The notes beneath the pieces are model-generated. The model did not search any database and was not told where the DNA came from. It saw only the letters and a list, made by a program, of their open reading frames with translations. Positions 35,242 to 62,794 of a stretch of 64,000 nt of DNA are shown one piece after another (positions within the stretch are counted from its first letter, which is position 1; every line of letters starts with the position of its first letter). The stretch spans positions 62,001 through 126,000 of the forward strand of contig JAGOMP010000004.1 of NCBI GenBank assembly GCA_017993505.1. The letters run 5' to 3'. Position numbers and translations under genes: made by a program. This DNA is from Planctomycetota bacterium. GTDB lineage: Bacteria; Planctomycetota; Uabimicrobiia; Uabimicrobiales; JABWCH01.

Positions 35242-38058
35242 ATGCCATTATTGTATGTAGAAAAAGGTATTGATAAAGGTATATCGTTTCCTTGTACATT
35301 TACATCAGAAAAGCCCATTACAATTGGTCGTAGTGTAAAATGTGACATAACATTAAATGATTGTTCTACGTCTAGAAATCATTTAGAAATTTATACTAAA
35401 GAAGGTCAATATTTTCTAGAAGATAAAGGTAGTTTAAATGGAACTATCGTGAATGGGCAAAGTATACAAAATCCCTATTTATTAAAAGATGGTGATCGAA
35501 TTGAAATTGGGGAAACGATTTTTACTTGGCAACTAGAACAAGATATTACTAAAGATCCATTCATTGGAAAAGATATTAATGGACATCAAATTGTAAAAAA
35601 ATTAGGACGAGGTGGTATGGGAGTAGTGTATCTAGCTCGTCAAGTTTTTTTAGAACGAGATGTTGCTTTAAAAATTATAATGCCTAAACATGAAACATCT
35701 CAAAGTGTTGCTGACTTGTTTTTGCAAGAAACACGTGCCTGTGCTACTTTAAACCATCCTAATATTATTCAAATTTATGATGCTGGTAAATGGGATACAT
35801 ATTATTATTTTACCATGGAATATGCAGCCAATGGTGCCATACAAGATAAAATTGTTGGTGGAAATAAAATTCCTTGGGAAGAAGCCATTCCCTATATGTT
35901 AGACACAGCTGCAGGATTGGAATATGCAGAAAAGAAAAAAATTGTTCATAGAGACATTAAGCCTGATAATTTAATGTTATCCAATGATAATCGCGTTAAA
36001 ATTGTAGATTTAGGAATTGCTTGTCGCTTTGATCAAATCAATAAAGACGAGCAAATTTATGGGACACCGCATTATGTGTCTCCTGAACAAATTCAGGGAC
36101 ATCCAGTAGACTTTCGGTCTGATATGTATTCTTTTGGTGCTACATTTTATCGTATTTTATCAGGGAATACACCGTTTCATGGAAGAACACCGCAGGAACT
36201 TTTGATGAAACATTTGCAAGAAAAGCCAGAACCACTCAAAAATTTAGACCTTGATATTCCTGAACGATTGTCCGACATCATTGATAAAATGATGCAAAAG
36301 GACCCTAACCAAAGATATGCTAGCAATTCTGAAATCATCAAAGCTTTACAAAATGTTTCTAAATTTAAAAAAAATCGATCCGTAGCAACAAGATCGAAAA
36401 TGCGAACTGGTAAAATCAGTTCTATGGCAGGCAAAAACAATTATCGTTCCAACATTATTTCTAATAAAGTTACCTCCTCTATTTCTCGACGCGAGCTATT
36501 AATGAGTCGTAGAAGAAAAAATTACACAACTTACTATGTATATGGCGTTATATTTTTTCTCCTTATATTATTTGGTGTTGGATTCTATTTACATGAACAA
36601 TATGAATTACGACAACAAAAGCAAGAAGAATTGCGACAAGAAGAAAAAGCTCTTGAAAAATATCAAAAACTGATAAAACTTCAAGAAAAATTTCCACATG
36701 ATTATGCAAATTTAAAAAAATATTATCAAATATTTTTAGAAGCACATCCTAATTCTTCTGTGAGTAAAGATATTTCAGAACGATTACAAAATATTATAAC
36801 TCTAGAAAAGTCCTCCTCCACATCTAAAACAAAACTTAGCATAGACAACCATGAAAATAAAGACATAGATCAACGTCATCATACTATACAAGATAATGAC
36901 CAGAAAGATACAAAAAACGAATCTGAAATCATAGAAAAATTAGAAACTAACAAGGAACAAAATGCAGAAGCTAACAAGGAACAAAATGCAGAAGCTAACA
37001 AGGAACAAAATGCAGAAGCTAACAAGGAACAAGAAATAAAAATTACTCGAGAAGTAGCATATAATTTACACGATACATTTGAAAAAATTCAAACACAATT
37101 ATCAGAAAAACAATATTATCATTCTTGGAACGAAATACAAAAATTAAAAATAGCATGCAAAAAATTTTCATATTATGAATTAGATAATGCAATCAATCGA
37201 TTACAGCAGAACGTACTACGGAAAATGCAAGAATATATCACGAATTATCAATTCAAAATAGAACAGGGTTTTACCAATAAAAGCGACCTTCAATCTTTTT
37301 TGCAAGAACTAGAACATTATAAAAACATTCCAGAACTACAAGCCCATATTGAACAAATTACGAGTAATATAAAAACTAGTATTCCTACGTTATTAAAAGA
37401 ATTAGAACCATGGAGAGCCCAATATCAATTTTCAAAAGGGAGAGAGTATCTTCAAAAATTATACAACCAATCTCCTATAAATGCACATGAAATTCAAATG
37501 TTAAGTCAAGAATGGCAAGGACTAGAAAGATTGTGGTACAATACAAAAAAAAATATTAGGCAATATAGAGTTTCTCAAGAAGCTTTACAAGGACTTCCCA
37601 AAAGTATACCTAACAATGGTTATCTTGTAACTGTTCTTTTTATAGAAAATACAAAATTAGTCCTACATTTTCAAAAACATTCTACTAAAAACACAGCAAA
37701 AAGAAAAGTAGATATTCACGATATAGATCCTGAATGGTTTTATAAATACTTTGTCAAACCTTTAAATAAAGGAAAAGATTTAGAATTGGCAATATATTGT
37801 TATTGGTTCAAATTATACTCTCATGGATATGAATGCAAAACTGCTCTTTCCAATAAATATTGGAAAAATAAATTTCAACAAAAAGAAGAAGAAAGCCAAA
37901 TATGGTATAGGAATAATATCGCTGTAAAGTATAATAACATAGAACAATTTAGCGATATGTCGGAGGAATGGAAAAGATCCATTCGTGAATTAGAAAAAAA
38001 TATTAAAATTTTTGACCAAGAATATAAGTATACTCAATTTTATAAAACCCTTCGCTAA
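35242..38058 (+). CDS. FHA - Ser/Thr protein kinase - transmembrane protein (catalytically intact)
   Basis: Residues 1-100 are an FHA domain with the phosphothreonine-binding residues (TIGRS, SRNH, GSLNGT). Residues 118-370 are a Hanks-type kinase: GRGGMGVVYLA, Lys144 in VALKI, HRDIKPDN with Asp238, VDLG in place of DFG, and PHYVSPEQ. One membrane segment lies near 431-453. The extracellular part is Glu/Lys-rich, with a 24-bp repeat (NKEQNAEA) and a helical C-terminus. All catalytic residues are present, so it should phosphorylate Ser/Thr and probably signals across the membrane. It heads the FHA/pseudokinase cluster. A good GAAAGGA site precedes the start. Confidence 0.93.
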   Translation: MPLLYVEKGIDKGISFPCTFTSEKPITIGRSVKCDITLNDCSTSRNHLEIYTKEGQYFLEDKGSLNGTIVNGQSIQNPYLLKDGDRIEIGETIFTWQLEQDITKDPFIGKDINGHQIVKKLGRGGMGVVYLARQVFLERDVALKIIMPKHETSQSVADLFLQETRACATLNHPNIIQIYDAGKWDTYYYFTMEYAANGAIQDKIVGGNKIPWEEAIPYMLDTAAGLEYAEKKKIVHRDIKPDNLMLSNDNRVKIVDLGIACRFDQINKDEQIYGTPHYVSPEQIQGHPVDFRSDMYSFGATFYRILSGNTPFHGRTPQELLMKHLQEKPEPLKNLDLDIPERLSDIIDKMMQKDPNQRYASNSEIIKALQNVSKFKKNRSVATRSKMRTGKISSMAGKNNYRSNIISNKVTSSISRRELLMSRRRKNYTTYYVYGVIFFLLILFGVGFYLHEQYELRQQKQEELRQEEKALEKYQKLIKLQEKFPHDYANLKKYYQIFLEAHPNSSVSKDISERLQNIITLEKSSSTSKTKLSIDNHENKDIDQRHHTIQDNDQKDTKNESEIIEKLETNKEQNAEANKEQNAEANKEQNAEANKEQEIKITREVAYNLHDTFEKIQTQLSEKQYYHSWNEIQKLKIACKKFSYYELDNAINRLQQNVLRKMQEYITNYQFKIEQGFTNKSDLQSFLQELEHYKNIPELQAHIEQITSNIKTSIPTLLKELEPWRAQYQFSKGREYLQKLYNQSPINAHEIQMLSQEWQGLERLWYNTKKNIRQYRVSQEALQGLPKSIPNNGYLVTVLFIENTKLVLHFQKHSTKNTAKRKVDIHDIDPEWFYKYFVKPLNKGKDLELAIYCYWFKLYSHGYECKTALSNKYWKNKFQQKEEESQIWYRNNIAVKYNNIEQFSDMSEEWKRSIRELEKNIKIFDQEYKYTQFYKTLR
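36946..37032. repeat. 24-bp coding tandem repeat in the kinase gene
   Basis: The unit gctaacaaggaacaaaatgc plus agaa (24 bp) occurs about 3.6 times and encodes the eight-residue ANKEQNAE repeat in the extracellular stalk. Frame is preserved, so copy number can vary harmlessly. Confidence 0.9.
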
Positions 38059-38078: not shown

Positions 38079-38138
38079 CTTACCTATATAGATAATACAG
38101 AGTTACAAAACACTTTGTTGACATAATGGAGAAAAAAA

Positions 38139-38807
38139 ATGGAAATTTTTGGAGTTTATTTAGTAAATCGTAGCTCAGGGGCGACTATTCCTTTATTTCA
38201 AGATAAAGAAAATTATATTGGACGTGGAATTCCTAACCCACAAGGTGAAAAAGGGAAAGTCTTATTTCCAGATCCTTCCATTTCCAAAATTCATGCTACC
38301 ATTGCCATGGATCCAAACACTTTCAAATGGATACTAACAGACAAAAGCCGCCACGGTATTTATGTAAATGAAAAAAAAGTAAATCAATCTACTGATATAC
38401 ATCATGGTGATAGAATAGACGTAGGTTCTTTTACATTAATGTTTTATGAAAAATTTAATGCAGACGATGAAACTATGGAACAACCTTTACCAGTCATCTT
38501 TCAACAACAAAGAGCTAGCTATAATAGATGGAAATGGGGCTTTTATATTTTATTTCCATTAGTCATTGAACTTCTTCTTGCTCTTATATCTCCCCTAACA
38601 CTGTTAGGAATTTCTTGCGTTGTTCTTGTATTTAGTGTGATTCTCTTGGTGAAAAAAAGTTGGCGTGAAAATATTAAAGTTACACTTACAGCAGTGATCA
38701 TTAGCATTCTTTTTTCTTTGTTAGGGATTCTAATATTTTCTGTATGCAATTACAATCCAGAAGCAAATATTATAACTATTCAAAAACCAATCAAGCAGTC
38801 TAAATAA
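38139..38807 (+). CDS. FHA domain protein with C-terminal membrane helices
   Basis: Residues 10-105 form an FHA domain: YIGRGI, SISKIHATI, DKSRHGIYVN and HGDRIDVGS. After a linker come about three membrane segments (FYILFPLVIELLLALI, LLGISCVVLVFSVILLV, VTLTAVIISILFSLLGILIF). The FHA part would face the cytoplasm and read phosphothreonine, most simply on the adjacent kinase or its targets. It lies 80 bp after the kinase gene on the same strand with its own GGAG site. Function beyond this is unknown. Confidence 0.85.
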   Translation: MEIFGVYLVNRSSGATIPLFQDKENYIGRGIPNPQGEKGKVLFPDPSISKIHATIAMDPNTFKWILTDKSRHGIYVNEKKVNQSTDIHHGDRIDVGSFTLMFYEKFNADDETMEQPLPVIFQQQRASYNRWKWGFYILFPLVIELLLALISPLTLLGISCVVLVFSVILLVKKSWRENIKVTLTAVIISILFSLLGILIFSVCNYNPEANIITIQKPIKQSK

Positions 38808-38913: not shown

Positions 38914-41625
38914 ATGGAAGTTCAAGAATGGAATCATGTTTTTTTTAATTTATATAGTGGAGAAAGCAAGAAAATTTTGGACGAATCATTACAACATTTG
39001 CATCAAAATAGAGGAAATGTAGTTTTATTTGATACTAGTGAAGAAATTTCCCCCAATGTGTGGATTCGAGAAAGGCTTGCTTCAGAAACATATTCTGTAT
39101 ATTGGCAAAATTGTAGCTATTTACCCAATTGCTCCTATTCTTCTCTTTGGAATCGGTTTTCAGAAATTTTTTCTACCTATAAACAAAAAAAGTTGCATAA
39201 AATTCAAAATTTTTTAATGCCATGGGGTTCATTAAATTTTATACAAAAATTTTGGATCAAATTTACACAATCTACAGATCAATCTGTTTTACCTTTTCAA
39301 GAAAATCAGTTTTTTTCTTATTTTTCTCTTCATCTAAAAAAACCATGCATCATATATTGGGAAAATTTACATCATGCAGATATAGACACGCTAGATGCAC
39401 TGTTTTTTTTAATACATGCATGCAGAGATAAACCTGTGCTTTTTATTTTTACTATTTGCTCTATGTGGGTGGATAGACCTGTTCTTCCTAAAGAATTCCA
39501 AGGAAATGATGTGCCCATTATGGTAAAATTACAAGCCATGAAAGCATTACAAAGCGGAGGTAGTGATCGAAGTAAACTTTCTGTAGTTAAAAAAATACAA
39601 CAACTTGCAAAAAATATTACATGGGACGTAGCAGATGAGGAAGTATTATTTTCTATTTTACAGAAAGTTTTTCATAAGTCAGTATCACACGATGTAATAT
39701 ACCAAATTATAGACTTATCTCATAGAGATCCATACCAACTCAGCCAAGTCCTATTATATTTTTCTGACTTGCTACAACCACAAGGCAAACGATGGAAATT
39801 TCGTTTAGAAGAATCAGAACTTGAAATTCCTCGTAACATGGACGAAATTTACCAAAGTAATATGCAACAATTAACAAATGAAACATACTATATTTTAGAA
39901 TATATGGCAGTTTCTTTATGTCCTTGCACTATTTCTTCCCTAGCAGAAATGTTAGAAATGGATGAAACAAGAGTAGAGGAATGTATGGAAAATAGCGTTC
40001 AATGGGGCATTTTACAAAAAATTCAAAATTTTTATACTTTTTCTACAGAACGTCATAGAGAACTTATAGATGAAGGTATCCACAATCAACAATATGCAAA
40101 AATACATACTATTTGGAGCGAATATTGGAGTAAAAAACAAGCTCCTCATTATTTAATCTATGAACATCTAAAACGAAGTAAAAATCAAGAACTTGCTTTA
40201 AATTATATATTTCAAGTAGCACAAGATTATGAAATACTAGACTCTCCTTTAGAAGCATTTCGAATCTATAAATTTGCACAAGAAAATTTCTCTGAAATCA
40301 TAGATATTTACAACGAAGATATACAATATCTCACACAAATTTTTCAACCTATTGATAAAAATAAAAAAGAAAACACAACAGCTAAGGAAGCAGATAACAT
40401 TCCTGAAGAAAAAAAGAACAATGTAGCAGAAAAGAAATCAAAAATAAAAAAAGATAAAAATATTTTACAAGAAAAAATAAAAAATATTTTACAATTATAC
40501 AAAGTAGCAGGATTAAGTAGCGAAAATCCATTTCCAAAATATATACAAAAAGCTATTTCTCAATATATTGCACCTCAACATTTCTCCATCTTAGTTCAAC
40601 TCGTTTACTATGTACATTACGTCACTACTACAAGACGAAAACCATACCATTTCGAAGATATACAATTTTTTACAAATCTTTTACATCAAATCATTCCATC
40701 GCATTTTCATCAACAAAAAATACAATTATATTCTCTACAACAAAAAATACAGCAGCAACAACATATAGATTTTAAAATATTAAAAATATATAGAATATTG
40801 CAAAAAAAATGTAAAGATTACGAAGAATATTACATGGCTACTATGCATATTTTCTCCCATGCAAAACAAATGCAAGATTATTTTTTAGCTAGTGAAACAT
40901 TGCATAAATTATTAAAAAATACACAAATTCAAAATCCTGACAAAATATATTATTTTTATGAAATTGAAATTTTATATGAACTTGCTAAATTATATGAAGA
41001 ATGGGCAAGAACATTTTTTGAAGAAGCTACAAAAATTCAATATTTAAGGTCTGCTGTCTATGCTTATATTGACATTACACAAATTCTTCTTCGCCAGACC
41101 AATGCAATGAATAGTGCTCGAAAAGTCATACAATATGCTATTGAACTTTGTCAAAAATTTTCTATGGAAGACGATTTAGCTCAAAACTTACTTAAAGAAG
41201 TACAAAATAAACAAGAAACATATACTCAAACAAATCCTAATGAAAATACTGTAACCAACATTATGATTTTGAGCGACATGACTACTTTAGCCACAAAAGC
41301 ATTGCTAGAAGATACATTGCAGACACATAGTACATCTATTGTTTACGAAGAAGCTTATAAAGGCATCTCTATAGCAGAATATCAAAAAGACCAAGACATC
41401 ACTATCTTCATTGTTTCCTATGACACAGAAACATGGCAAGAATACAAACAACAATTTAAAGCACAAATCAACTCCACCATCATAAATAATAAAACAGCAT
41501 GTAGCATACAAGAGTACAATGACCAAACCACCATCATTTTACAATCTGATAGATATATGTATCTTCTGCCCTTAACTGTACAAATTACTAAGAACAAAAC
41601 TATGCAAGCATACTTGCCGTACTAA
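38914..41625 (+). CDS. STAND/AAA-like protein lacking Walker A
   Basis: The stretch CIIYWENLHHADIDTLDALF, near residues 143-165, matches the Walker B segment of AAA_16/STAND ATPases (normally LVIDDLHWAD). The place of the P-loop (NVVLFDTSEEISPNVWIRER) lacks GxxxxGK, so ATP binding is doubtful. A winged-helix-like segment (ISSLAEMLEMDETRVEECME) follows near residue 345, and a long helical, TPR-like C-terminal half. STAND proteins are signal hubs that gather partners. There is no membrane segment. It lies between two FHA/kinase genes. A possible -10 tataat lies at 38858-38863, with a good AAAGG site. Confidence 0.65.
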   Translation: MEVQEWNHVFFNLYSGESKKILDESLQHLHQNRGNVVLFDTSEEISPNVWIRERLASETYSVYWQNCSYLPNCSYSSLWNRFSEIFSTYKQKKLHKIQNFLMPWGSLNFIQKFWIKFTQSTDQSVLPFQENQFFSYFSLHLKKPCIIYWENLHHADIDTLDALFFLIHACRDKPVLFIFTICSMWVDRPVLPKEFQGNDVPIMVKLQAMKALQSGGSDRSKLSVVKKIQQLAKNITWDVADEEVLFSILQKVFHKSVSHDVIYQIIDLSHRDPYQLSQVLLYFSDLLQPQGKRWKFRLEESELEIPRNMDEIYQSNMQQLTNETYYILEYMAVSLCPCTISSLAEMLEMDETRVEECMENSVQWGILQKIQNFYTFSTERHRELIDEGIHNQQYAKIHTIWSEYWSKKQAPHYLIYEHLKRSKNQELALNYIFQVAQDYEILDSPLEAFRIYKFAQENFSEIIDIYNEDIQYLTQIFQPIDKNKKENTTAKEADNIPEEKKNNVAEKKSKIKKDKNILQEKIKNILQLYKVAGLSSENPFPKYIQKAISQYIAPQHFSILVQLVYYVHYVTTTRRKPYHFEDIQFFTNLLHQIIPSHFHQQKIQLYSLQQKIQQQQHIDFKILKIYRILQKKCKDYEEYYMATMHIFSHAKQMQDYFLASETLHKLLKNTQIQNPDKIYYFYEIEILYELAKLYEEWARTFFEEATKIQYLRSAVYAYIDITQILLRQTNAMNSARKVIQYAIELCQKFSMEDDLAQNLLKEVQNKQETYTQTNPNENTVTNIMILSDMTTLATKALLEDTLQTHSTSIVYEEAYKGISIAEYQKDQDITIFIVSYDTETWQEYKQQFKAQINSTIINNKTACSIQEYNDQTTIILQSDRYMYLLPLTVQITKNKTMQAYLPY

Positions 41626-41826: not shown

Positions 41827-42186
41827 CTACATATTTTCAGAGTAAATAAATTGTTCAGAGAATATGGCTGTACCTACAACAGCTGGCGGGATAGCAATAA
41901 TCTTGACTGGTGCAAGAGCTCCATATCCAATCCAAGGATTTGTATTTTCCCATTGCCAGATTGTAGAAACAACATTAGGTACATTTTTACAACCTCGAAC
42001 AGGATTGACTAGAACAATGTCAGCTACGCAACAAACTGCATATGTAGGCAACAATATAGGAGACATAATAATTTTTGATGTTGTCTCTGTAGGAAAGACA
42101 TTATCTCGCATATAATTACTCATAGGAAGTTGACAGCTTGTACAAAAAATAAGACAAAAAAGGATAAAAAAAATTTTTTTTTGCAT
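41827..42186 (-). CDS. small lipoprotein of unknown family
   Basis: A 119-residue protein with a lipoprotein signal and lipobox CTSC (Cys near residue 18). The mature part has a hydrophobic stretch (ILLPTYAVCCVADIVLVNPV) and aromatic residues near WQWENTNPW. I recognise no family. It is the only minus-strand gene in the 33-64 kb region and sits inside the signalling cluster, transcribed toward the STAND-like gene. Confidence 0.7.
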   Translation of the reverse strand: MQKKIFFILFCLIFCTSCQLPMSNYMRDNVFPTETTSKIIMSPILLPTYAVCCVADIVLVNPVRGCKNVPNVVSTIWQWENTNPWIGYGALAPVKIIAIPPAVVGTAIFSEQFIYSENM

Positions 42187-42277: not shown

Positions 42278-42421
42278 ATTTTATCATGTTTTGTGTCATA
42301 GAATATATAGATATAAAGACTTTTTATTCAAAATAGACACATTATGATTGTGATCATAGAAATTTATAGAAATTATATACATTTTTTTTAGATTGACAAG
42401 TTTTTTATTTATGGTGTGACT

Positions 42422-44413
42422 ATGACTGTAAAACTTACCATTACTTCTTTGGATAAAATAAAGGGCGAACAGCGTCATCATTTTAAATATCTCCGTTGGG
42501 GTGAAATACTACAAATTATGTTAAAAGATATATCTGATTCTACCAAAGTGTCAGATCCAGAACTTGTCTGTATCATTAAAAATGATAATGGCACAGTATA
42601 TTTAACAGATCGATCAGAACAGGGAATTTTAATCAATGGGAAACTAGAAACTCATTGTATTTTACATAATGGTGACCAATGTCTCTTGCCTTATTCTATT
42701 CAATTGTCTTTTGGAATCTATTTTTTAACTGGGAAAGATTTATTTCGTGGTGTTCGATCTTCCTGGAATTCGATTGTCTTAGAATACGTTCGTCCAAAAG
42801 CAGAAAAAGAAGAAACAATTGATTATTCGCATCCTGTTGGACATGAAATTAATGGTTATTATTTTGAAGATGTTTTGAGCTATGGCAATATGGGGATTGT
42901 GTATCGTGGCATTCAAAAATCTTTAAATCGAAAAGTGGCGATTAAGACGGTTTCACCTAAAAACTTCAATAACCAAACATTGATTAAACGTTTCATGAAC
43001 ATGGCAAGCTTAGCTTGGCGTTTGAACCATCCTTATATCGTACAAATTTATGATACAGGCATGAGTCGTGAATTTCAAATGCACTATGTTGTTATGGAAT
43101 GCATTGAAGGGGCTACGTTGCGTGATGTTTTGAATGAAAAAAAACGACTAGAGATAGATTACGCATGTAAAATTATGAGTCAATTGGCAAGTGCATTGGC
43201 TTTTGCACATCGTCAACACATTATCCATCGTGACGTAAACCCTACTAATATTATTATTACAAAAAATGATTATATTAAACTCATTGGTTTAGCACTGTCT
43301 AAAGTTTTAGATCCTGATCAAGAAAATATTGCGTTGACAGTCAAAGGTCAAGCCATGGGAACAATGGGATATATTTCACCAGAACAGGCCAAAAGTGCAG
43401 CAGATGTTGATTTTCGTACAGATATATATTCATTGGGTGTTATTTTTTACGAATGTTTGACAGGTAGATCACCCTATGATCCTGAAGCATTAAAAAAACC
43501 ATCATTATACGTTAGAGCATTAAGATCAAGACCCAAAGTGCAACCAAATAAAATTAATACAATGATTCCAGCAAATTTAAATGACATTATTATGAAATGT
43601 TTAGAACCAAATCCTGACAAACGCTATCAAAAAGTAGATCATTTTTTAGAAGATTTAAAACTATACACAGAAGCAGCACAATATTCTACTGCACAAAAAC
43701 GTATTCGTGCAATGTTCCCTAGAACTCCTATTTCTAATGTCTTTGACTTTCATGTTGTATTTGAACCTATGGAAGAAATTGGCGGTGATTTTTATGATTA
43801 TATTCCTTTAGATGAAGAAAAGTGGGGCATTGTCATTGGTGATGTGACAGGACATGGAGTGGAAGCAGCTGTTGTCATGGGGATGGTCAAATCTATCATC
43901 AAAGTGATGGCCAAAAATTTAGACACTGCTGTTGATGTATTAGAATATGCGAATAAAGAAGTTAGCACAGATATGGATAGCACCACATTTACTACAGTCA
44001 ATTATGGTATTTTAGATGGCAATAATATGACGATTCGATTTGCACGTGCAGGTCATCATCCACTGATTGTTTTTAATCTCCATAGAAAAGCTTCTTTAGT
44101 TACTTACGCACCTAAAGGCACAGTATTAGGCGTTCCTTGGTCTTTGAATTTAGAAGAAGTAGAAATACAATTAATTCCTGGCGACATTCTTGTGCAATTT
44201 ACAGATGGAATTACAGAAATACAATCAAAACAAGGAGAGGAATACGGCATTGAGAGATTGTGTAATATTATATCTGAACAAAGCGGAAGAACGGCCGAAG
44301 AAATTTCTAATGCCATTAGAACGGATGTGAGTGAATTTGCAAAAGGTATGCCCGACGCAGATGACATTACTCTTTTGGTTGTAAAAGTTCGCGAAGAAAT
44401 AAAAAACAGCTAA
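42422..44413 (+). CDS. FHA-like - pseudokinase - SpoIIE/PP2C phosphatase
   Basis: Residues 1-115 are a degenerate FHA domain (LTDRSEQGILINGK and LHNGDQ present, GR and SxxH lost). Residues 140-400 have a kinase fold, but key residues are gone: HRDVNPTN at 269-276 has Asn273 for the catalytic Lys, and DFG is replaced by GLA (Gly289). The alpha-C Glu also appears lost. Residues 430-660 are a SpoIIE-type PP2C phosphatase with metal ligands kept (EIGGDFYDY, GDVTGHGVEA, FTDGITE, DADDITLL). It should dephosphorylate Ser/Thr, with the pseudokinase as sensor or scaffold. ATG at 42422 is chosen; GTG at 42416 is possible. Confidence 0.9.
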   Translation: MTVKLTITSLDKIKGEQRHHFKYLRWGEILQIMLKDISDSTKVSDPELVCIIKNDNGTVYLTDRSEQGILINGKLETHCILHNGDQCLLPYSIQLSFGIYFLTGKDLFRGVRSSWNSIVLEYVRPKAEKEETIDYSHPVGHEINGYYFEDVLSYGNMGIVYRGIQKSLNRKVAIKTVSPKNFNNQTLIKRFMNMASLAWRLNHPYIVQIYDTGMSREFQMHYVVMECIEGATLRDVLNEKKRLEIDYACKIMSQLASALAFAHRQHIIHRDVNPTNIIITKNDYIKLIGLALSKVLDPDQENIALTVKGQAMGTMGYISPEQAKSAADVDFRTDIYSLGVIFYECLTGRSPYDPEALKKPSLYVRALRSRPKVQPNKINTMIPANLNDIIMKCLEPNPDKRYQKVDHFLEDLKLYTEAAQYSTAQKRIRAMFPRTPISNVFDFHVVFEPMEEIGGDFYDYIPLDEEKWGIVIGDVTGHGVEAAVVMGMVKSIIKVMAKNLDTAVDVLEYANKEVSTDMDSTTFTTVNYGILDGNNMTIRFARAGHHPLIVFNLHRKASLVTYAPKGTVLGVPWSLNLEEVEIQLIPGDILVQFTDGITEIQSKQGEEYGIERLCNIISEQSGRTAEEISNAIRTDVSEFAKGMPDADDITLLVVKVREEIKNS

Positions 44414-49148: not shown

Positions 49149-49193
49149 TTTACAAAATTTTTCTTTTTAAAAAAATAAGGAGTGAAAAAACGA

Positions 49194-53885: not shown

Positions 53886-56117
53886 ATGGTTATAAATAGG
53901 GACAAAAAAAAGGACTTAGAAATACTCGGATTGTCTGGAATATTTCAAGGAATTTATAATAATAAAAGAAATGGTATACTTTATGTTCAATCTGGAAACC
54001 GAGAAAAATATATCTACTTTTGGAATGGCAATATTTCCTTAGTAGCTTCCCCAAGGCGTTCCAGTATTTTAGCAGAGGGATTACGAAGATCATTTGGACA
54101 AATTGATGATGAAACATTAAACACTGTATTTCAAATCCAAGGAGAAACTGGGAAATCGCTTTCTACTATTTTATTAGAAATGAATGCTGATGAAGAATTT
54201 ATATCCAATATCTGTCTATTGCAAATGGGAGAAGAAATTTCCGAAATTTTTATCTGGCCAGACATTCAATTTGAATTTTTAGATCAAGAACCATCAGATG
54301 TTTTATTTCCTCCAGAATTGCTTGCATTGAAAATTGAAATCAATCCTGGAGTAGCCATGATGGAGGCTGCACGAAATTTAGATCAATGGAAAAATTTTGT
54401 GGAAGAATTTCCATCTTTGAAAGATATTCCTTATATCTGTGCAGATATTTATGATTTATCGCCAGAAGAATGTCATCTTTTAACATTATGTGATGGTGGA
54501 CACGATATAGAAGAAATTCTTAAGTTATGTCGTTTGCCTATGTTTCAAGCGATGTCCTTGCTATACAATATGTCCAAAAATCTTGGATACTTACGACTTC
54601 GCACTGCAGATGAACTCATACAAATGGCACAATTTGATGAATTTCGAAATAATATTCATAAATCTATCAAACTTTATGAACGAGCCGAAGAATTGGAAGG
54701 TGTTTCCATAGATACGCTTCGTTGGCTTGCAGAAGCATACGAAACTAGCGGATTGATTGGAAAAGCTGTGGCAAAATATCAAAAATTAGGCGATTTATGT
54801 TTAGAAAAAGAAGACTTAGATGGCAGTATTGAAGCATATGAACGTGTAATTGCATATGCACCAGAAAATTTAAGCGTTCATAAACAATATGTAAATGTAC
54901 TTTTTCAAAAAGAAGAATATGAAAAAGGATCTAAAGCATCTATTGTATATGCCCAAAAAATTTCTTTAGAAGATAAATCAAAAGCTATAGAAGTTTTAGA
55001 ATATGCTTATCAAAATAATCCTTTTAGTGCAGAAGTCTTAGAATATATGGCAACATTATATAATGAACTTGGGAAATATGATGATGCTTGTTTTATCTAC
55101 ACTACCCTTGGTAATTTATATAAACGACAAAATGATTTTGACGCCACAATCATAGCGTATAAAAAAATCTTAGACATTAATGCAAAGAACATTGAAGCTC
55201 GCTTTGCTCTAGCCAATACATATTCACAAATTGGTATGAAAGTAGAAGGCTTACAAGAATATAAAATTTTAGCAGATCTTTTACGTAGTAAAGAATTTTT
55301 AGAAAGTTCTTTTGGCTGTCGCTATTTAATCATAGTTTGTGAAAAGATCATTGAATATGAAGCCGATAACTATGCTGCAAGAGAATGGCTTGCAGATGTT
55401 TTTCTATACCAAGAAAACTTTGAAAAAGCCAAAGTGTATCTACTAGAATTATTAGAATTTTTAGAAAAAAGTTCCTTTGAAGAAAACCTTGAAACTTGGG
55501 TTTCTGTTCTACAAAAACTTGTCCAACTAGAACCTCGTAATCGTGATTATCGTCGGATGCTGGCTGAAACTTACCATCACCTAGAATATTATGACGATGC
55601 TACAAATGAACTTATCACACTAGGTTTTATTGCTATTGCAGAAGGGACAGAATTATATTCCCAAGGAAAAGACCAAGATGCCCAAGAATTATTCCAAGAA
55701 AGCTTAGACGCATTAAATTTCGTCCTTATTATTGATCCTTTTCATTTAGAAGTACGTAAAAAACGTGCAGAACTATTAGAACAACTAGGGCATATTGATG
55801 TAGCTGTAGAAGAATATAAATGCATTAGCAATATGACAAAAGCCATCAATGATCAATATGACACTATAGAAGCACTATTACACATTGTAGAACTTGTGCC
55901 AGATGAAATAGGTGCTATCTTAGAACTTGCTAAAATGTATGAAAAGCAAAATCAATTAGATCTTTCTAATAAATTTTACAAACAATATGCTTATCATAGT
56001 TTGATCCAAGGTGATTTCGGTGAAGCTATCCAAACTTGCCGGAAATTATCTACTCTTCTCCCTAACGATGAAGATATTATACAATGGCGTGAAATTGCAA
56101 CGGAGCTTCAACAATGA
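53886..56117 (+). CDS. PATAN (DUF4388)-TPR protein
   Basis: Residues 5-150 match the PATAN/DUF4388 layout found in planctomycete and cyanobacterial signalling proteins (IYNNKRNGILYVQSGNR, IYFWNGNISLVASP). Within it, SLSTILLEMNADEEFI resembles a helical motif seen in other proteins here. Residues 230-740 are about ten TPR units (VAKYQKLGDLCLEKEDLDGS and similar). There is no signal peptide, so it is cytoplasmic and probably a protein-binding hub. The next gene overlaps it by 4 bp (ATGA). No clear ribosome site precedes the ATG at 53886. Confidence 0.82.
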   Translation: MVINRDKKKDLEILGLSGIFQGIYNNKRNGILYVQSGNREKYIYFWNGNISLVASPRRSSILAEGLRRSFGQIDDETLNTVFQIQGETGKSLSTILLEMNADEEFISNICLLQMGEEISEIFIWPDIQFEFLDQEPSDVLFPPELLALKIEINPGVAMMEAARNLDQWKNFVEEFPSLKDIPYICADIYDLSPEECHLLTLCDGGHDIEEILKLCRLPMFQAMSLLYNMSKNLGYLRLRTADELIQMAQFDEFRNNIHKSIKLYERAEELEGVSIDTLRWLAEAYETSGLIGKAVAKYQKLGDLCLEKEDLDGSIEAYERVIAYAPENLSVHKQYVNVLFQKEEYEKGSKASIVYAQKISLEDKSKAIEVLEYAYQNNPFSAEVLEYMATLYNELGKYDDACFIYTTLGNLYKRQNDFDATIIAYKKILDINAKNIEARFALANTYSQIGMKVEGLQEYKILADLLRSKEFLESSFGCRYLIIVCEKIIEYEADNYAAREWLADVFLYQENFEKAKVYLLELLEFLEKSSFEENLETWVSVLQKLVQLEPRNRDYRRMLAETYHHLEYYDDATNELITLGFIAIAEGTELYSQGKDQDAQELFQESLDALNFVLIIDPFHLEVRKKRAELLEQLGHIDVAVEEYKCISNMTKAINDQYDTIEALLHIVELVPDEIGAILELAKMYEKQNQLDLSNKFYKQYAYHSLIQGDFGEAIQTCRKLSTLLPNDEDIIQWREIATELQQ

Positions 56118-56725
56118 CATGGTTTCTATTTTTGATTTGCTTTTGCAATGTAATTTTTTCTCAAACTATAGAATTACCTGGTATAAAAGTTTTTTACCAA
56201 GAAAAAAAAATAGAAATTCAAGGAATTGTGAATCAACAATGTGATTTTATTGAGCTCTTAGCCACCACACCTGGTGGAAAAGAGCATGAAAGTTTACTTG
56301 TACTGTACTGTAATCCTGCTATTTTCCATAGTGCTCTTCTTATGATAGGACTTCAACCAGGACAAGCTGGAAAATACCAAGGCGATACATTTTTACCTAC
56401 AGGAGATAGTGTATACTTATATGTGCGATATAATCAAGTACAGCACAATGTAGAAAAATGGGTTTGGGATAAAAAACACCAAACAGAAATGAAACAAACA
56501 CCTTGGATATTTACAGGAAGTCGATTTATCCAGCTAGACAATGGGAAACATTGCTTTGCAGCTAATTTGCAAGGCGTTCTCATTGCAACATTCCATGATC
56601 CTTATGCCATCTTAAATAATCCACTCCCCGAACGAATAGATGATACGATATATTGTGTCAATTCTACAACAACACCACCCAAAGGTACACCCATTACCTT
56701 AATTATTACTACAAGGAAACAATAA
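56114..56725 (+). CDS. exported YdjY-domain protein
   Basis: After a signal peptide (WFLFLICFCNVIFS) the protein matches the YdjY domain: IEIQGIVNQQCDFIELLA, then TPGGKEHESLLVLYCNPA and the IFHSALLMIGLQPG segment. YdjY domains are frequent in Planctomycetota exported proteins and have no known function. It overlaps the end of the PATAN-TPR gene by 4 bp (ATGA), which implies translational coupling. Confidence 0.85.
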   Translation: MTWFLFLICFCNVIFSQTIELPGIKVFYQEKKIEIQGIVNQQCDFIELLATTPGGKEHESLLVLYCNPAIFHSALLMIGLQPGQAGKYQGDTFLPTGDSVYLYVRYNQVQHNVEKWVWDKKHQTEMKQTPWIFTGSRFIQLDNGKHCFAANLQGVLIATFHDPYAILNNPLPERIDDTIYCVNSTTTPPKGTPITLIITTRKQ

Positions 56726-56915: not shown

Positions 56916-57016
56916 CATGGAAATTTTATTAAATATAATGATCTGAGAACAGATCAAGCTTGTTTCATGGAAATTTTATCAAAATATAATGATCTGAGAA
57001 CAGATCAAGCTTGTTT
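56916..57016. repeat. 50-bp tandem duplication with internal hairpin
   Basis: Copy 1 at 56916-56965 and copy 2 at 56966-57016 are nearly identical. Each contains gatctg-agaa-cagatc, a 6-bp stem with a GNNA-like tetraloop. Two such hairpins would lie in the mRNA leader. Confidence 0.9.
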
Positions 57017-57089
57017 TATTTAAAAAATTCGAATAAACTCCAAATGTACTAAAACAATTTGGAAAGATTGTATGGAAAGGGAGGATAGT

Positions 57090-59594
57090 ATGAGGGGTAT
57101 AGCAACTCTATTGTTCTTATTTATAGTTTTTTACCCCTTGTGTCAACTAGGTGCACAAGAAAATAATTTTAGAGAAGATATTATTCAACAATCCAAAGAA
57201 GCATTTGAACTTTACAGAAATGCTCAATTAGACGAGGCTATTTATAAATTTAACGCCATTCTACTCCAGCATCCATCAGACAAAGAAGCCCTTGAAATGA
57301 GAGAGCAAGCTGGTGTAGAACTTATGATGCAGATGCTTCTTCAAGGTGGCGAAATTTCTCGCATTGCGAGAATTCTTATGCTGTATGCAGAACAAGCCCC
57401 TGTTCGCCAAGAAACCGATCCAGGAATTATTCGCAAATTGGTAGAACAAGCAGCTACAGGCAACTTATATCAAAGAAACAATGCCATTTCTCTTTTAGAC
57501 GCACAAGCAGGCGAATTAGCAGCACCATACATGTTGAATTATCTCACCAATAGAACAAAAGATGAAGAACGAATCAACATTCAACTTGCCATGACAAAAA
57601 TGGGTTCCACTCTTGTTAATCCATTAATCGAAGCTTTAGATTCTGCGGATCTATTTTTACGTCAACAAGTTATTATGATTTTAGGTAATATCAAAGACGT
57701 TCGAGCTTTGGCTGACCTCAAAAAAGTTTTAGAAGATAAAACAGAAGAAGCATCTGTTAAAGAACAAGCAAGTATTGCTATTCAAAAAATTACTGGGAAA
57801 CCAGCTATTGCACTTAAATTAGCCAAATACTTATATTACGAAAAAGCCAATAAATATTATGAAGATGCTATAGAATACAAAATTGGTGCATCTTCTAACC
57901 GTTTACAATGGAAATGGATGAATAACAGTTTAAATTACCAAGAAATTCTTCCTTCCATTTACAATGATGTTATGGCAGAAGATGCATGCTATAGAGCATT
58001 GCAACTCGATCCAGGATTTCAAAGAGCATGGGCTCTTCTCCTTCAAATTTATTACTCTCAAAAAACAAAAATTGAATCTGTAGAAGAAGCAGCAACAGAA
58101 AGAGCAGTTCTTGTCCCAGAAGAAGATCTTAAAAAATTTCAACAAGATAAACCAAGAGCAGTCCAAGCTTGCAACTTAGCATATGCTGCAGGACCTGACC
58201 TTCTTTATCTCGCTCTTCAAGATTCTTTACGAAGAAGAAATAAAAATTCTGAAGTAACTGTGGAAATCCTCGTTGCTCTTGGAAATTTATGCAGAAACCA
58301 ACAAACAATTGTTCGTGACATTATCCATTGTTTAAATCACCAAGATAAACGTGTACGTTATGCTGCAGCACAAACTATTTCTGAAATCAATCCTATTGGA
58401 ACTTTCAAAGAAGCTCCCAAAGTTGTGGAAATTCTAAAAGAAGCATTACAAGAATGGGATACACGAGTTATTTTAATTGTAGATGACAACGACGCATCTC
58501 GCAATGAACTTAGCGAAATCATTCGCAAAGCTGATTTAGTTGCTTTAGCAGTCAACAGTGGAACAGAAGGTATCAAACGAGCCAAAACTTTTCCACCAGA
58601 GGATTTAATTATTGTTGCAGAAAACTTATCTGATATGACTACATCCTACTTTGTCAACAATGTTACAGAAGATCCCTTTGCTAGCAATATTCCTGTATTA
58701 ATTTTAGGTAAAAAAGAAAACAAAGAAAAACTTTTTACACTTTACAGTACCAAAGCTCAAATCAAAGACATTGTTACTCTTCCACTGCAAGAAGATGAAG
58801 TAAAACTTCAAATCAACAAAGTATTAGATGCTCATAAAAAACCATATAAAGTGAATGCAACAGATGTAACCTTACGCTCCCTTCAAGTGATGACACAATT
58901 GGCTCATCAGGGTGCTATTTTTTCTCATATGAATAAATGCATCGATGTACTCACCGGACTTTTAGAATATAAAACAGATGAAAAAATCATCATGCTGACT
59001 CTAGACATTTTAGGAAATATCGGTGATGCACAAGCAATCACTAAAATAGAAGAACTTCTTGTGCAAAAAGATCTTTCTTATAAAATACGTAACAAAACAG
59101 CTTGGGCTTTAGGACAAATTTTTGCAAAATCTAATATAAAACCAACTGAAAAAGAACTGGAAATGTTTGTTGGTATTCTCAATGAAACACCAAAAGCAGA
59201 TACAGACGTCACTTTTTCAGAATTTTCTAGATCTATCTATCAACTTCTAGGACATGCAACAATGGATGTTGGTAATCGACGTGCTCTATTCATGGAAAAT
59301 AGAGTCCAAATTAAACCTGTACCTATTCAACTAGAAGAAGAAGAACCAGAAGAGGAAGAAGAAGTAGAAGAAGAAATTCAAACGGAAGATCCAGATAAAG
59401 AACAACATGTAGACGACGGCACTGATGAAGAATGGGGCGATGAATCTGAGGAATTTGAAGAATTTTTAGAGTATGAATCATCAGACGAAGAAGGCTATGA
59501 AGACGAAGAATTAGAAGATGAAAACTATGAAGATAACAACGAAGAAGATGATGAATACAATGATGATGAATACAACGATGATGAAAATGAATAA
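57090..59594 (+). CDS. exported TPR/HEAT protein with embedded pseudo-receiver domain and acidic tail
   Basis: The ATG at 57090 is chosen because GGGAGG lies at the right distance; it gives a signal peptide (GIATLLFLFIVFYPLCQLGA). TPR-like helices and HEAT repeats follow to about residue 450. Residues 458-580 look like a response-regulator receiver: VILIVDDNDASRNELSEIIR has the acidic pair, but the phosphoacceptor position (DLIIVAENLSDM) has no Asp in place and the Lys motif is lost. More HEAT repeats follow, and then about 95 very acidic residues. A receiver fold outside the cytoplasm is unusual, so it may be a pure binding module. Confidence 0.82.
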   Translation: MRGIATLLFLFIVFYPLCQLGAQENNFREDIIQQSKEAFELYRNAQLDEAIYKFNAILLQHPSDKEALEMREQAGVELMMQMLLQGGEISRIARILMLYAEQAPVRQETDPGIIRKLVEQAATGNLYQRNNAISLLDAQAGELAAPYMLNYLTNRTKDEERINIQLAMTKMGSTLVNPLIEALDSADLFLRQQVIMILGNIKDVRALADLKKVLEDKTEEASVKEQASIAIQKITGKPAIALKLAKYLYYEKANKYYEDAIEYKIGASSNRLQWKWMNNSLNYQEILPSIYNDVMAEDACYRALQLDPGFQRAWALLLQIYYSQKTKIESVEEAATERAVLVPEEDLKKFQQDKPRAVQACNLAYAAGPDLLYLALQDSLRRRNKNSEVTVEILVALGNLCRNQQTIVRDIIHCLNHQDKRVRYAAAQTISEINPIGTFKEAPKVVEILKEALQEWDTRVILIVDDNDASRNELSEIIRKADLVALAVNSGTEGIKRAKTFPPEDLIIVAENLSDMTTSYFVNNVTEDPFASNIPVLILGKKENKEKLFTLYSTKAQIKDIVTLPLQEDEVKLQINKVLDAHKKPYKVNATDVTLRSLQVMTQLAHQGAIFSHMNKCIDVLTGLLEYKTDEKIIMLTLDILGNIGDAQAITKIEELLVQKDLSYKIRNKTAWALGQIFAKSNIKPTEKELEMFVGILNETPKADTDVTFSEFSRSIYQLLGHATMDVGNRRALFMENRVQIKPVPIQLEEEEPEEEEEVEEEIQTEDPDKEQHVDDGTDEEWGDESEEFEEFLEYESSDEEGYEDEELEDENYEDNNEEDDEYNDDEYNDDENE

Positions 59595-59633: not shown

Positions 59634-59667
59634 ATTCTAATTGCTAGCAAATGCTAGCAATTAGAAT
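59634..59667 (+). terminator. 34-bp perfect palindrome after the HEAT/pseudo-receiver gene
   Basis: Arms 59634-59649 and 59652-59667 (attctaattgctagca and complement) flank a central AA. It lies 40 bp after the stop and 18 bp before the next start, without a U-tract. Confidence 0.55.
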
Positions 59668-59684
59668 TCATTAGAAAGATTAAA

Positions 59685-60422
59685 ATGCGCTTTGGAATTA
59701 TAGCAGATGTCCATGCTAATTTAGAAGCACTCATGATTGCTTTTCATACATTGAAAGAAGAAAATGTAGACCAAATCATTTCTCTAGGGGACGTTGTGGG
59801 TTACAATGCAAATCCTGCCGAATGTCTCAACTTGATTATGGAACACAATATTCCTTCTATTAAAGGAAATCATGAACGATATGTAATTGGAGAAAAACAA
59901 GAACATGTCAAAGAAGACACTATGAAAATGTTAGAATGGACTCGAAATCAACTTGAACCAGAGCATTATGAATTCATCTCCCAAAAAATGCCCAACAAAA
60001 TGTTACATGAAGAAGGATTTATCATCACTCATGGTTCACTAAGAAACAAAGATGAATACTTGATCCCATTAGACTCTTTTGTAAAAAATCTCAAACTTAT
60101 GGAAGAAAAATATCCAGAAATTCCTGTTTGTTTCCATGCTCATTCCCATTTACCATCTGTGATGGCAAGAGGTCATATGGTACAAAGTATCCATGAAGAT
60201 ATATTTATAAAGCTTCATAGAGACAAGCAATACTTAATTAATCCTGGAAGCGTTGGCCAACCAAGAGATAAATGTCCTTTATGCTCCTTTGGGATATTTA
60301 ATTCTGAAGAATTTACATTCCAATTTTTCCGAAGACCATATGATATTCCAAAAACACAAGAAAAAATCAATAGACTAGGATTTGCTCCTCGTTTTGCTAG
60401 TCGATTGAGCGATGGTAAATAA
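59685..60422 (+). CDS. metallophosphoesterase, calcineurin-like (YfcE/MJ0936 type)
   Basis: A 245-residue enzyme with the metal-binding set: DVHANLEAL (D-x-H), LGDVVGYNA (GD), GNHERY (GNHE), a later HGS, and HAHSHLP (GHTH-type). The ending YLINPGSVGQPRD is typical of the small cytoplasmic phosphodiesterases of this family. It hydrolyses a phosphodiester or nucleotide of unknown identity, and a cyclic-nucleotide or phosphoprotein substrate is possible. It lies between two signalling genes. The 3' end is partly duplicated downstream. Confidence 0.9.
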   Translation: MRFGIIADVHANLEALMIAFHTLKEENVDQIISLGDVVGYNANPAECLNLIMEHNIPSIKGNHERYVIGEKQEHVKEDTMKMLEWTRNQLEPEHYEFISQKMPNKMLHEEGFIITHGSLRNKDEYLIPLDSFVKNLKLMEEKYPEIPVCFHAHSHLPSVMARGHMVQSIHEDIFIKLHRDKQYLINPGSVGQPRDKCPLCSFGIFNSEEFTFQFFRRPYDIPKTQEKINRLGFAPRFASRLSDGK

Positions 60423-60475
60423 AAATTTTCTGAATAATGCTTCGCTAATCGATGGTACGATAGTAAATAAAAATT
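60402..60475. repeat. imperfect duplication of the phosphoesterase 3' end
   Basis: The gene end gctagtcgattgagcgatgg with taaataaaaatttt is followed by a diverged copy (gctaatcgatggtacgatag, then taaataaaaattttt). As at 41.6 kb, a gene end with its stop codon has been tandemly copied. Confidence 0.65.
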
Positions 60476-60550
60476 TTTCCTAACAAAGGAATTTTGTTTT
60501 TTATAATACAACAATTAGCATAAACTAGCAATGAAAGTAGGAAATACAAC

Positions 60551-62794
60551 ATGCCATACATTATTGCAGGTGATAAAGAATATTGTCTACAAAAAAATAA
60601 TGCATTATTTATAGGTCGAGCATGTAAAGATTTTGACTTACAAGATGAACTTCTTTCTAGAACACATTGTGTAATTGATTGGGATTCTCAAGGTTTTTTT
60701 TACATCAAAGACCTAGATTCACATAATGGAACTTTTGTAAATGGAGAAAAAATTGTACAACAAAAACTCCAAGACAACGATAAAATAAAAATAGGAAGCA
60801 CATATTTAACTTTCATGACTCAAAAAAAACATTCCTCTAATCCCTGTCAATATCAATTGTATTTTCCAAAAACAAAACAATATTTCTTATTACAAGATAA
60901 AACTTCCTTCACAATTGGAAGGAAAAAAGACAACGATCTTTTTTTAAAAAGCAGACAAGTTTCGGCAAAACACGCAGAAATTTCCTATAAAGACAATCAA
61001 TGGTGGATCACTGATTTAAATAGTCGAAATGGTGTGATGCTCAATAAACAAAAAATCACTTCCTCACCTTTAACAAACAACGACATACTTCAAATTGGAG
61101 ATGTATTTTGTTTTTTTCAAAAAAAAGAACAAAAACCACATACAAAAAAAGAATCTATCCTCCTATCATTCGCCATATATCCCTTAATTTTTATTATACT
61201 ATTAGCTACTATTTTACTTAATCTTAGCTTATTTAAAACAGATGCCATACCAGAAATTCCCAACAACCTCATAGAAGACTATTCTTTTGAAAGTGAATTT
61301 CAATGGGAATGCACAGGAAATTTACAAATTGCAACTACAGAACATAGTAAAACTGGCAAAAAATGCGTGCAATTTATGCCAATATCTGTAAAACAAAAAA
61401 GCGAATGTATATACTGGTTGCCTTTAAATATACAAGCAACCAAATCATACCGCATCATGATTTGGACTAAAGGAACTTCCCTCCAAGGTTGCGTAGGAAT
61501 ACACATCACTTGGTTTCAAAATGCTAAAAAACTTTGGGATGAATATACTCCCTTACGAACAGAACTCAAAACAGAATGGACTCTCGATGTTGCTACAGTC
61601 ACACCACCACCCTATGCTACAAAAATGCAAATCAGTTGCATGATACATGGGAGTGCCCATGGATTCTATTTAGACGACATACAAATCGAAGAAATAGAGC
61701 AAGTACAACCACGATCCAGCTTCAAACTCAATGTACTAGAAATCATGCCTGATATTCATGGAATATTTCATATATTTTATGCAAAAACATACTTATTTCC
61801 TATTGGTCACATTCAAATTACAAACCCAGACAAAGAAACATTAGAATTTCATCAAACATATAGCACATTTACCGTAGAAAAAAACGATCAACAATGCCTA
61901 TATAAAGGAAACTTGCATCCCTTATTAAGCAAAGAAAACGTCCAAATGGAAATCCAATACATACAACAAGAAGAAATAAGTATCTTGCAATACAAACTTC
62001 AGTGGGAACGAACAAAAAATAATCATACATACAACATGACTATACCTAACAAAATGCTTGATCCAGAAGTAGAAAACTTACAAAGACAATTTCAAACATT
62101 TCCCATTATATGGAAACTTCCTAGCATTGACAAACGAGCAACATTCTTAGTAAAAAATCTTAAATTGCCACAACAAAACAAAGAAAAACAACAACTGCAA
62201 TACTCTATACCTGCTTCACAAAATAGACAAGCTACATTTGAAATTACATTGCAAATATACAATGAACAAGATACACACCGCCACAAAGAACAAATACAAG
62301 AAGCAAAAACAATACAAAAACAAAAACAATATGGAAAAGCTTGGCAAATATATCAAACTATTATACAAGAATGCACTATACCAAGTTTAGTGCAAGAATC
62401 TAACATACAAATACGACAAATTGACAACCAATTTAACCAAGACTTACAAACATTGATCAACATGCAAGAAACAGCAGATTTTTTTCAAAACATAACAATA
62501 TACCAAAGAATAGCAACATTAACACAACAATACGCACAACAATGGAAAGAATACGAAAAATTTTCAGAAATACAAAAAATTCAAGAAAAATATAATCAAG
62601 AAATACAAAAAATTCAACAACAAAACAAAAGTCAATATGCATCTATTCTTCTTAAACAAGCAGCAGACATGCAACAAGCCCAACAAAACTGGCTTGCAAT
62701 CCTACTCTATAAAGAACTCCTACTTCAATATCCTGAGTATCCTGAAAAACAAGACATAGAAACTAAAATTAAAATGCTACAACAAACAAAATAA
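60551..62794 (+). CDS. double-FHA membrane protein with carbohydrate-binding-like outer domain
   Basis: Two complete FHA domains: residues 15-95 (FIGRAC, SRTH, DSHNGTFVNG) and 120-200 (TIGRKKDN, SAKH, NSRNGVMLN). A membrane segment follows at about 215-240. Residues 245-385 look like a CBM4/9-type beta-sandwich (NLIEDYSFESEFQWECTGNL, then HGFYLDDIQIEEIE). The last third is Gln-rich coiled coil with a final TPR-like segment. The cytoplasmic FHA pair can read phosphothreonine from the cluster kinase while the outside may bind glycan. It is the last gene before serS, 12 bp away. Ribosome site GTAGGA. Confidence 0.87.
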   Translation: MPYIIAGDKEYCLQKNNALFIGRACKDFDLQDELLSRTHCVIDWDSQGFFYIKDLDSHNGTFVNGEKIVQQKLQDNDKIKIGSTYLTFMTQKKHSSNPCQYQLYFPKTKQYFLLQDKTSFTIGRKKDNDLFLKSRQVSAKHAEISYKDNQWWITDLNSRNGVMLNKQKITSSPLTNNDILQIGDVFCFFQKKEQKPHTKKESILLSFAIYPLIFIILLATILLNLSLFKTDAIPEIPNNLIEDYSFESEFQWECTGNLQIATTEHSKTGKKCVQFMPISVKQKSECIYWLPLNIQATKSYRIMIWTKGTSLQGCVGIHITWFQNAKKLWDEYTPLRTELKTEWTLDVATVTPPPYATKMQISCMIHGSAHGFYLDDIQIEEIEQVQPRSSFKLNVLEIMPDIHGIFHIFYAKTYLFPIGHIQITNPDKETLEFHQTYSTFTVEKNDQQCLYKGNLHPLLSKENVQMEIQYIQQEEISILQYKLQWERTKNNHTYNMTIPNKMLDPEVENLQRQFQTFPIIWKLPSIDKRATFLVKNLKLPQQNKEKQQLQYSIPASQNRQATFEITLQIYNEQDTHRHKEQIQEAKTIQKQKQYGKAWQIYQTIIQECTIPSLVQESNIQIRQIDNQFNQDLQTLINMQETADFFQNITIYQRIATLTQQYAQQWKEYEKFSEIQKIQEKYNQEIQKIQQQNKSQYASILLKQAADMQQAQQNWLAILLYKELLLQYPEYPEKQDIETKIKMLQQTK

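Follow-up and report, generated by a model that had tools for sequence, protein, structure and literature searches.

We analysed a window of 64,000 nucleotides from a planctomycete of the Uabimicrobium order (contig JAGOMP010000004.1, positions 62,001 to 126,000 of the forward strand), in which a run of signalling genes, here called A to L, occupies positions 35242 to 62794. Our main finding concerns protein D, in which a kinase-fold domain that has lost catalytic residues is fused to an intact SpoIIE/PP2C phosphatase domain. D is probably a signal-gated phosphatase in which the dead kinase has a regulatory role, with the adjacent membrane protein E as its envelope sensor, the two (with F in one family) forming a functional unit. 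The 28-kb run around them is best read as independent signalling modules that lie densely by chance, in an organism with unusually many kinases.

A dead kinase fused to an intact phosphatase

Genes and domains were assigned from the open reading frame (ORF) listing, Pfam and motif alignments, and transmembrane (TM) and export segments from hydropathy. The features on which the argument turns are the following (aa, amino acids):

42416-44413, + strand: D, fusion of a degenerate FHA segment, a pseudokinase and SpoIIE/PP2C (Pfam Pkinase 5e-44, SpoIIE 2e-43)
42833-43651, + strand: D pseudokinase domain, aa 140-412 (mean pairwise identity 0.75 among six orthologues)
43652-43744, + strand: D linker between pseudokinase and PP2C, aa 413-443, with the invariant AQKRIRAMFP, at a site matching the RsbU/RssB-type regulatory linker
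43745-44395, + strand: D PP2C/SpoIIE domain, aa 444-660, with metal-site motifs intact
44443-49083, + strand: E, a TPR/lectin-like single-pass membrane protein of 1546 aa (Pfam TPR; hydropathy TM at aa 438-456)

A preliminary description of this DNA had counted two kinase-fold proteins with lost catalytic residues and one intact SpoIIE/PP2C phosphatase. Both counts hold, the former for D (DFG-Asp, alphaC Glu) and F (HRD-Asp); since the phosphatase domain is the C-terminal half of D, the 'pseudokinase' and the 'phosphatase' noted there are one protein. Full-length orthologues of D, 58-68% identical, occur in all five relatives compared (G001 to G005) and thus, counting the window genome (G000), in every one of the six from this order.

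The kinase domain of the window D keeps VAIK and HRD (HRDVNPTN), DFG has become GLA, and the alphaC Glu is a Met. Across the six sequences the beta3 Lys and HRD-Asp are kept, and the alphaC-Glu, the catalytic-loop Lys (HRDVNPxN) and the DFG-Asp (KLxGLALSK) are lost. If a pseudokinase is taken as a family in which at least one of the beta3 Lys, HRD-Asp and DFG-Asp is missing throughout, D is one, its DFG-Asp being Gly. The PP2C motifs GGDFYD, GDVTGHG, TDGITE and DD are present in all six proteins, and the Pfam SpoIIE model is matched over positions 2-192 of 192 with 148.8 bits, so that on sequence D classes as a PPM/SpoIIE phosphatase. The RssB, SiaA and SpoIIE models match the C-terminal half, the NCBIfam RssB model over aa 425-656, and a PDB sequence search with D gave PknB-type kinases as best matches. 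At the N-terminus, aa 1-125 have no Pfam FHA match, and descent from an FHA domain is seen by alignment with the paralogue described below, the only one of the two proteins to keep the FHA core GR...SxxH...NG. Mean pairwise identity among the six orthologues is 0.44 in the FHA-like part, 0.75 in the kinase (0.82 in its N-lobe) and 0.65 in the PP2C domain. Conservation in D is highest in the dead kinase, which speaks against decay.

Origin of the loss

Paralogues of D were found in the window genome (contig C65), in G003 (C330), in G004 (C91) and in G005 at 163 kb. They carry the same kinase losses (HRDINPSN, xGLGL), and their FHA domain is intact where the N-terminus is complete. Replacement of the DFG-Asp by Gly and of the HRDxK Lys by Asn, together with loss of the alphaC-Glu, is shared by six of six D proteins and by the four of four paralogues that cover the kinase; all ten sequences have kept their PP2C motifs intact. 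Among 392 planctomycete genomes, matches spanning both kinase and PP2C came only from this order and from G271 and G083, a lower bound, as three candidates were scored per genome and rarer fusions may be missed. The FHA-kinase-SpoIIE homologues of G271 and G083 keep the beta3 Lys, HRD-Asp, D-x-G motif and alphaC-Glu, which makes the loss specific to the Uabimicrobium-order clade. In a tree, D and its paralogue form separate groups, the latter with moderate support, and the outside proteins fall together; the root is unsure, given a long-branched third copy from G003. On the simplest reading of these sequences, kinase activity would have been lost once, in the ancestor of the order and before D and the paralogue separated, and the altered domain then strongly retained.

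Genome G003 also encodes a third, strongly diverged FHA-kinase-SpoIIE protein (L090, contig C548) with HRNLAPSH in the kinase and an altered PP2C motif, GDTTDHG; judged by these motifs, it is possibly dead in both halves.

E and its linkage to D

E consists of a cytosolic helical N-terminus, the TM segment at aa 438-456, and extracytoplasmic lectin-like, TPR and weakly peptidase-MA-like regions. A single TM segment, starting between aa 426 and 493, was found in all four full-length E proteins tested. The lectin-like match is of the 3-keto-disaccharide-hydrolase (3keto-disac_hyd)/LamG type, weak and sub-threshold, and the PDB sequence search with E returned TPR proteins only. We rejected the C-terminus as a metallopeptidase: Peptidase_MA_2 and DUF1570 matched below threshold (0.12 and 0.023) and HExxH is absent, leaving a weak resemblance. 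The cytosolic N-terminus is the better conserved portion (42-43% identity in G002 and G003), the outer lectin/TPR part evolving faster.

E directly follows D in the same direction in five of the six genomes (G000, G002, G003, G004 and G005), which span two families, and in four of these five the gap is about 3-30 bp, short enough to suggest co-transcription. F stands directly after E in G003 and G001. One might regard this adjacency as gene order inherited without functional meaning, given that there are six genomes only and that the link is broken in G001. We consider this improbable, because the adjacency spans two families while most of the surrounding order is lost, and because the gaps are short.

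A proposed working of D and E

We propose that D works in the cytosol as a Ser/Thr phosphatase of the PP2C/SpoIIE type, and that the kinase domain at its N-terminus performs no phosphotransfer and has a regulatory role instead. E, anchored by its one TM segment, would use its lectin-like and TPR regions to read the periplasm or the outer envelope, and its cytosolic N-terminus may touch the pseudokinase of D. By analogy with RsbU and RssB, the invariant linker would then relay the conformation of the pseudokinase to the PP2C switch and so turn the phosphatase up or down, and the pseudokinase would occupy the place of the sensor or partner-binding domain of RsbU-type phosphatases. F may serve as a further non-catalytic kinase-fold scaffold. 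For RsbU, PMC12143880 describes how the PPM domains are brought to dimerise when a partner binds to the N-terminal domain and linker. It also argues that PPM phosphatases with other N-terminal sensor domains are controlled by the same linker device.

Several observations weigh against this proposal. E is far less conserved than D (23-43% identity). In G001, D lies on contig C170 among other neighbours and E-F on C379, so the linkage is not absolute. The structure models from AlphaFold2, run on two-sequence alignments, were not usable (pLDDT 37 for D, 44 for the E N-terminus). The window genome has no substrate gene linked to D. Finally, D retains the beta3 Lys and HRD-Asp, with which residual or unusual nucleotide chemistry is possible.

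The invariance of these two residues would suit a bifunctional D, in which the kinase fold binds nucleotide and catalyses some atypical reaction, such as phosphotransfer or AMPylation, while the PP2C domain of the same protein counteracts it; bacterial pseudokinases with new chemistry do exist, SidJ and SelO among them (PMC12599244). We nevertheless judge it quite unlikely, as the metal-binding DFG-Asp, the catalytic-loop Lys and the alphaC-Glu are jointly lost in all ten sequences, and the Gly loop of D is also without its first Gly. The pseudokinase might instead be mainly a docking platform that brings D to phosphorylated kinases or FHA-bound substrates, independently of E and without allostery. 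More than 100 kinases in the window genome could be its clients, and the MviN pseudokinase works by recruitment (PMC12599244), but such docking would leave unexplained both the adjacency of D and E in five of six genomes and the invariant linker beside the PP2C switch, and we regard it as rather unlikely, though less so than a bifunctional enzyme.

Signal gating of D through E is compatible with a further suggestion that names a substrate, namely that D activates partner switching in the manner of RsbU: it would dephosphorylate a STAS anti-anti-sigma factor and so affect transcription. SpoIIE-type phosphatases classically act on STAS proteins (PMC11418112), and the window genome has 14 STAS and 6 HATPase_c_2 matches. 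In G005 a STAS protein is encoded about 1.6 kb past E, and in both G004 and G005 the neighbourhood of the D paralogue includes a STAS-HATPase_c_2 fusion; through these links to E and to the paralogue, STAS proteins are candidate substrates of D. No STAS gene is found near D in the loci examined in G000, G002, G003 and G004, however, the G005 link is a single case, and a search of the window contig (C41) found no STAS or HATPase_c_2 gene at all with which D could make up a partner-switching module. We therefore hold partner switching to be a tentative possibility, the foremost among the alternatives but short of an even chance.

Proteins that join STAS and HATPase_c_2, as if an anti-anti-sigma factor had been fused to its kinase, occur near SpoIIE genes at L070:13642-14772, L071:6779-7921 and G000:C46:28761-29741.

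Bacterial pseudokinases are largely unstudied, and most are without a known output (PMC12599244). D carries its output, PP2C, on one chain with the dead kinase, whose regulatory effect should thus be directly measurable by a phosphatase assay. The protein is also a conserved candidate counterweight to the hundreds of kinases in these planctomycetes with their phagocytosis-like way of life. We would go further only as speculation, which we think doubtful: that the kinase fold was turned into a gate by which a PPM phosphatase receives signals from an envelope sensor in the membrane, that this serves as a brake, both core and ancient, on the giant kinomes of cell-engulfing bacteria, and that D represents a new pseudokinase family with its output enzyme on the same chain.

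The surrounding run

The preliminary description had read the whole run as a single phosphorelay across the envelope, in which A would be the writer, D the eraser and the FHA proteins the readers. In its favour, the genes are co-directional, nearly all on one strand as that description had noted, the exception being a 119-aa ORF at 41827-42186; some of the readers span the membrane; and the run, whose 27.5 kb hold three FHA genes, three kinase genes and one SpoIIE gene, has the joint-highest such count in the window genome. Genome-wide searches, however, put the FHA domains of that genome (3.08 Mb in 103 contigs, 86% complete) at 50, spread over about 40 genes, beside about 123 kinase loci and 11 SpoIIE domains, and genes laid out at random give an equally dense window 66% of the time (P=0.66; gene positions from the search tables, permuted on a single uniform coordinate line with contig ends ignored). 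Co-location is accordingly weak evidence. With some 120 alternative writers and ten other SpoIIE domains, the notion of one writer and one eraser is not supported, and for A, the supposed writer, the relatives offer no clear orthologue of the part beyond the kinase and FHA domains. Genes of housekeeping type, moreover, adjoin or interrupt the run (a YggS-like gene at 34537, the metallophosphoesterase at 59685).

A conserved neighbourhood, proposed as a check on the system, was sought in the five relatives, where the genes lie in different places apart from two blocks, D-E(-F) and H-I-J-K; this is largely the outcome that the preliminary description had named as a refutation. In G005, a closed single contig of 9.5 Mb with more than 600 kinase candidates, the orthologues of L, J-K, D-E and C are at 1.86, 3.24, 5.08 and 5.82 Mb, respectively. 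The order H-I-J-K is kept in G002, G003 and G004, and J-K in G005; L follows K in G003 only and is elsewhere unlinked to it. None of A, B, C and L adjoins D in any of the five relatives. A single system is thus very unlikely, more so than any of the alternatives weighed for D itself. The lesson is a negative one: a striking 28-kb 'system' proves to be the chance product of a dense kinome, to which two small conserved blocks are added.

A tandem kinase expansion is found elsewhere in the same genome, at G000:C35:33826-58248, where seven large kinase genes (about 800-1370 aa) occupy about 25 kb.

Other genes of the run

35242-38058, + strand: A, FHA, intact Ser/Thr kinase, TM and coiled-coil-rich extracytoplasmic tail (Pfam FHA 1e-20, Pkinase 5e-54)
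38139-38807, + strand: B, FHA and two TM helices at aa 153-171 and 185-203 (Pfam FHA 1e-14; hydropathy)
38914-41625, + strand: C, degenerate AAA_16 (STAND-like) protein, Walker A lost (orthologues score as AAA_16)
49182-51803, + strand: F, pseudokinase, coiled coil and FGE-sulfatase-type domain, no TM (Pfam)
51821-53593, + strand: G, exported HEAT-repeat protein (HEAT_2 1e-10; N-terminal hydrophobic segment)
53886-56117, + strand: H, cytosolic DUF4388 and TPR protein, opening the block H-I-J-K (Pfam)
56114-56725, + strand: I, exported protein of 203 aa, overlapping H by 4 bp (neighbour of H in relatives, 46-58% identity)
57072-59594, + strand: J, exported HEAT protein with a receiver-like domain (Pfam Response_reg 9e-8, HEAT_2 4e-21)
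59685-60422, + strand: K, calcineurin-like metallophosphoesterase (Pfam; after J in G000 and G002 to G005)
60551-62794, + strand: L, two FHA domains, TM and a CBM_4_9 carbohydrate-binding-like domain (FHA 1e-39; hydropathy TM)

The genes named in the preliminary description all exist, and nearly all of its domain assignments are borne out by this inventory. A is the one kinase with all catalytic residues (VALK, HRDIKPDN, DLG), with its TM segment at aa 432-450. The FHA-type proteins number four: A, B and the double L by Pfam, and the degenerate D by paralogue alignment only. A itself is outside the conserved blocks, and was rejected as a universal writer, its non-kinase tail having one weak match of 23% in the relatives. 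In F the HRD motif reads HDCLVPDN, with the HRD-Asp lost in three of three proteins and DLG kept. The exported TPR, HEAT and LamG-like scaffolds are found in E (TPR, one TM segment, weak LamG-type match) and in the HEAT proteins G and J; H, which had been included, is cytosolic. G stands beside F in an arrangement that is not conserved in the relatives, and I has no Pfam match.

Of the STAND-like hub attributed to C, the family assignment survives through its orthologues, whereas C itself has no significant Pfam match and the Walker A lysine is missing in five of five orthologues, so that C does not classify as an active AAA_16/STAND ATPase. Its orthologues are located elsewhere in the relatives, and in G001 and G003 beside an intact kinase; of these kinases, encoded just before C, the one from G003 was scanned and contains an FHA domain. 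This order of kinase and C (loci L062 and L068) recalls a split CP1-type kinase-ATPase.

The receiver-like domain of J has Ala or Ser at the acceptor Asp in five of five genomes and is not a receiver in the usual sense; the signal-like N-terminus is likewise present in five of five. J and its relatives (L058, L059, L060 and L061) represent a conserved periplasmic pseudo-receiver that K always follows. The conserved losses in D, F, C and J look like those of functional non-catalytic parts, not of decay. Just upstream of J, at 56939-57007, two identical palindromes TGATCTGAGAACAGATCA lie inside a tandem duplication of about 51 bp, and no further copy was found in the window or in the other loci compared. 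A perfect hairpin with a 15-bp stem lies between J and K, at 59634-59667.

Phospho-signalling linked to outer binding domains, another element of the preliminary description, is seen in single proteins, not in one conserved system: A, E and L each cross the membrane once, and L joins its two FHA domains to a CBM_4_9 domain beyond the single TM segment (26.3 bits against a cut-off of 25.9). In G004 and G005 a PilM-like gene, homologous to window 31176-32783 (-), lies directly 3' of the L orthologue (L065, L066), a possible link of phosphothreonine reading to a type IV pilus or secretion machine. To the left of the run, the window holds a type II secretion/type IV pilus locus (9355-12724 and 26269-32783, - strand) with Secretin/GspD, PilO-like and PilM-like genes and an adhesin-like protein with LamG and PilX_N.

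Comparison with known systems

The earlier statement that no system with this set had been described was too strong. The actinobacterial cell-wall locus pknA-pknB-pstP-fhaA-fhaB combines kinases, one PP2C and two FHA proteins (PMC6554272), but it is conserved across a phylum, which the run A-L is not, and the run does not represent a locus of the PknB-PstP-Fha kind. The MviN pseudokinase recruits FhaA through its phosphorylated tail (PMC12599244); it sits on a cell-wall protein, whereas the pseudokinase of D is fused to a phosphatase.

With the bacterial families ActPs1-3, GLW, CP1, DYD and DLHK (PMC12599244), D shares a conserved kinase-fold domain with defined losses. DLHK resembles it in keeping the HRD-Asp and losing the DFG-Asp, but lacks the beta3 Lys that D retains in VAIK; in GLW, the residues GLW replace HRD and the beta3 Lys is replaced, while D keeps both. 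D belongs to neither family. CP1 is linked to a predicted ATPase (COG3899), an arrangement that brings to mind C and its neighbouring kinase in G001 and G003; D has no COG3899/AAA_16 domain by Pfam.

Ca. Uabimicrobium amorphum, with a genome of 9.5 Mb, has 610 putative kinases, 525 of them with the K, D and D sites (PMC11032199), and D would belong among the roughly 85 without these sites that the study set aside. The main texts of PMC12599244, a pseudokinase review of 2025, and of PMC11032199 mention no SpoIIE/PP2C fusion; SpoIIE and PP2C are absent from the former altogether, and SpoIIE and pseudokinases from the latter; in the literature searched, which excluded subscription papers, we found no bacterial pseudokinase-PP2C/SpoIIE fusion.

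Among the systems close to D are the FHA-kinase-SpoIIE fusions of G271 (C239) and G083 (C132), which share its domain order over the whole kinase-PP2C length and differ in having the beta3 Lys, HRD-Asp, D-x-G motif and alphaC-Glu, an intact FHA domain and a zinc-ribbon-like insert. With the RsbU, RssB and SiaA phosphatases D has in common a C-terminal SpoIIE/PP2C domain placed after a linker, probably helical, and an N-terminal domain of presumed regulatory role. The regulatory domains named in the available part of PMC12143880 (RsbU N-terminal, PAS, GAF, response receiver and HAMP) are without a kinase fold, whereas that of D is a pseudokinase behind a degenerate FHA domain. As a phosphatase, D is an ordinary member of the PPM family with an unusual regulatory domain.

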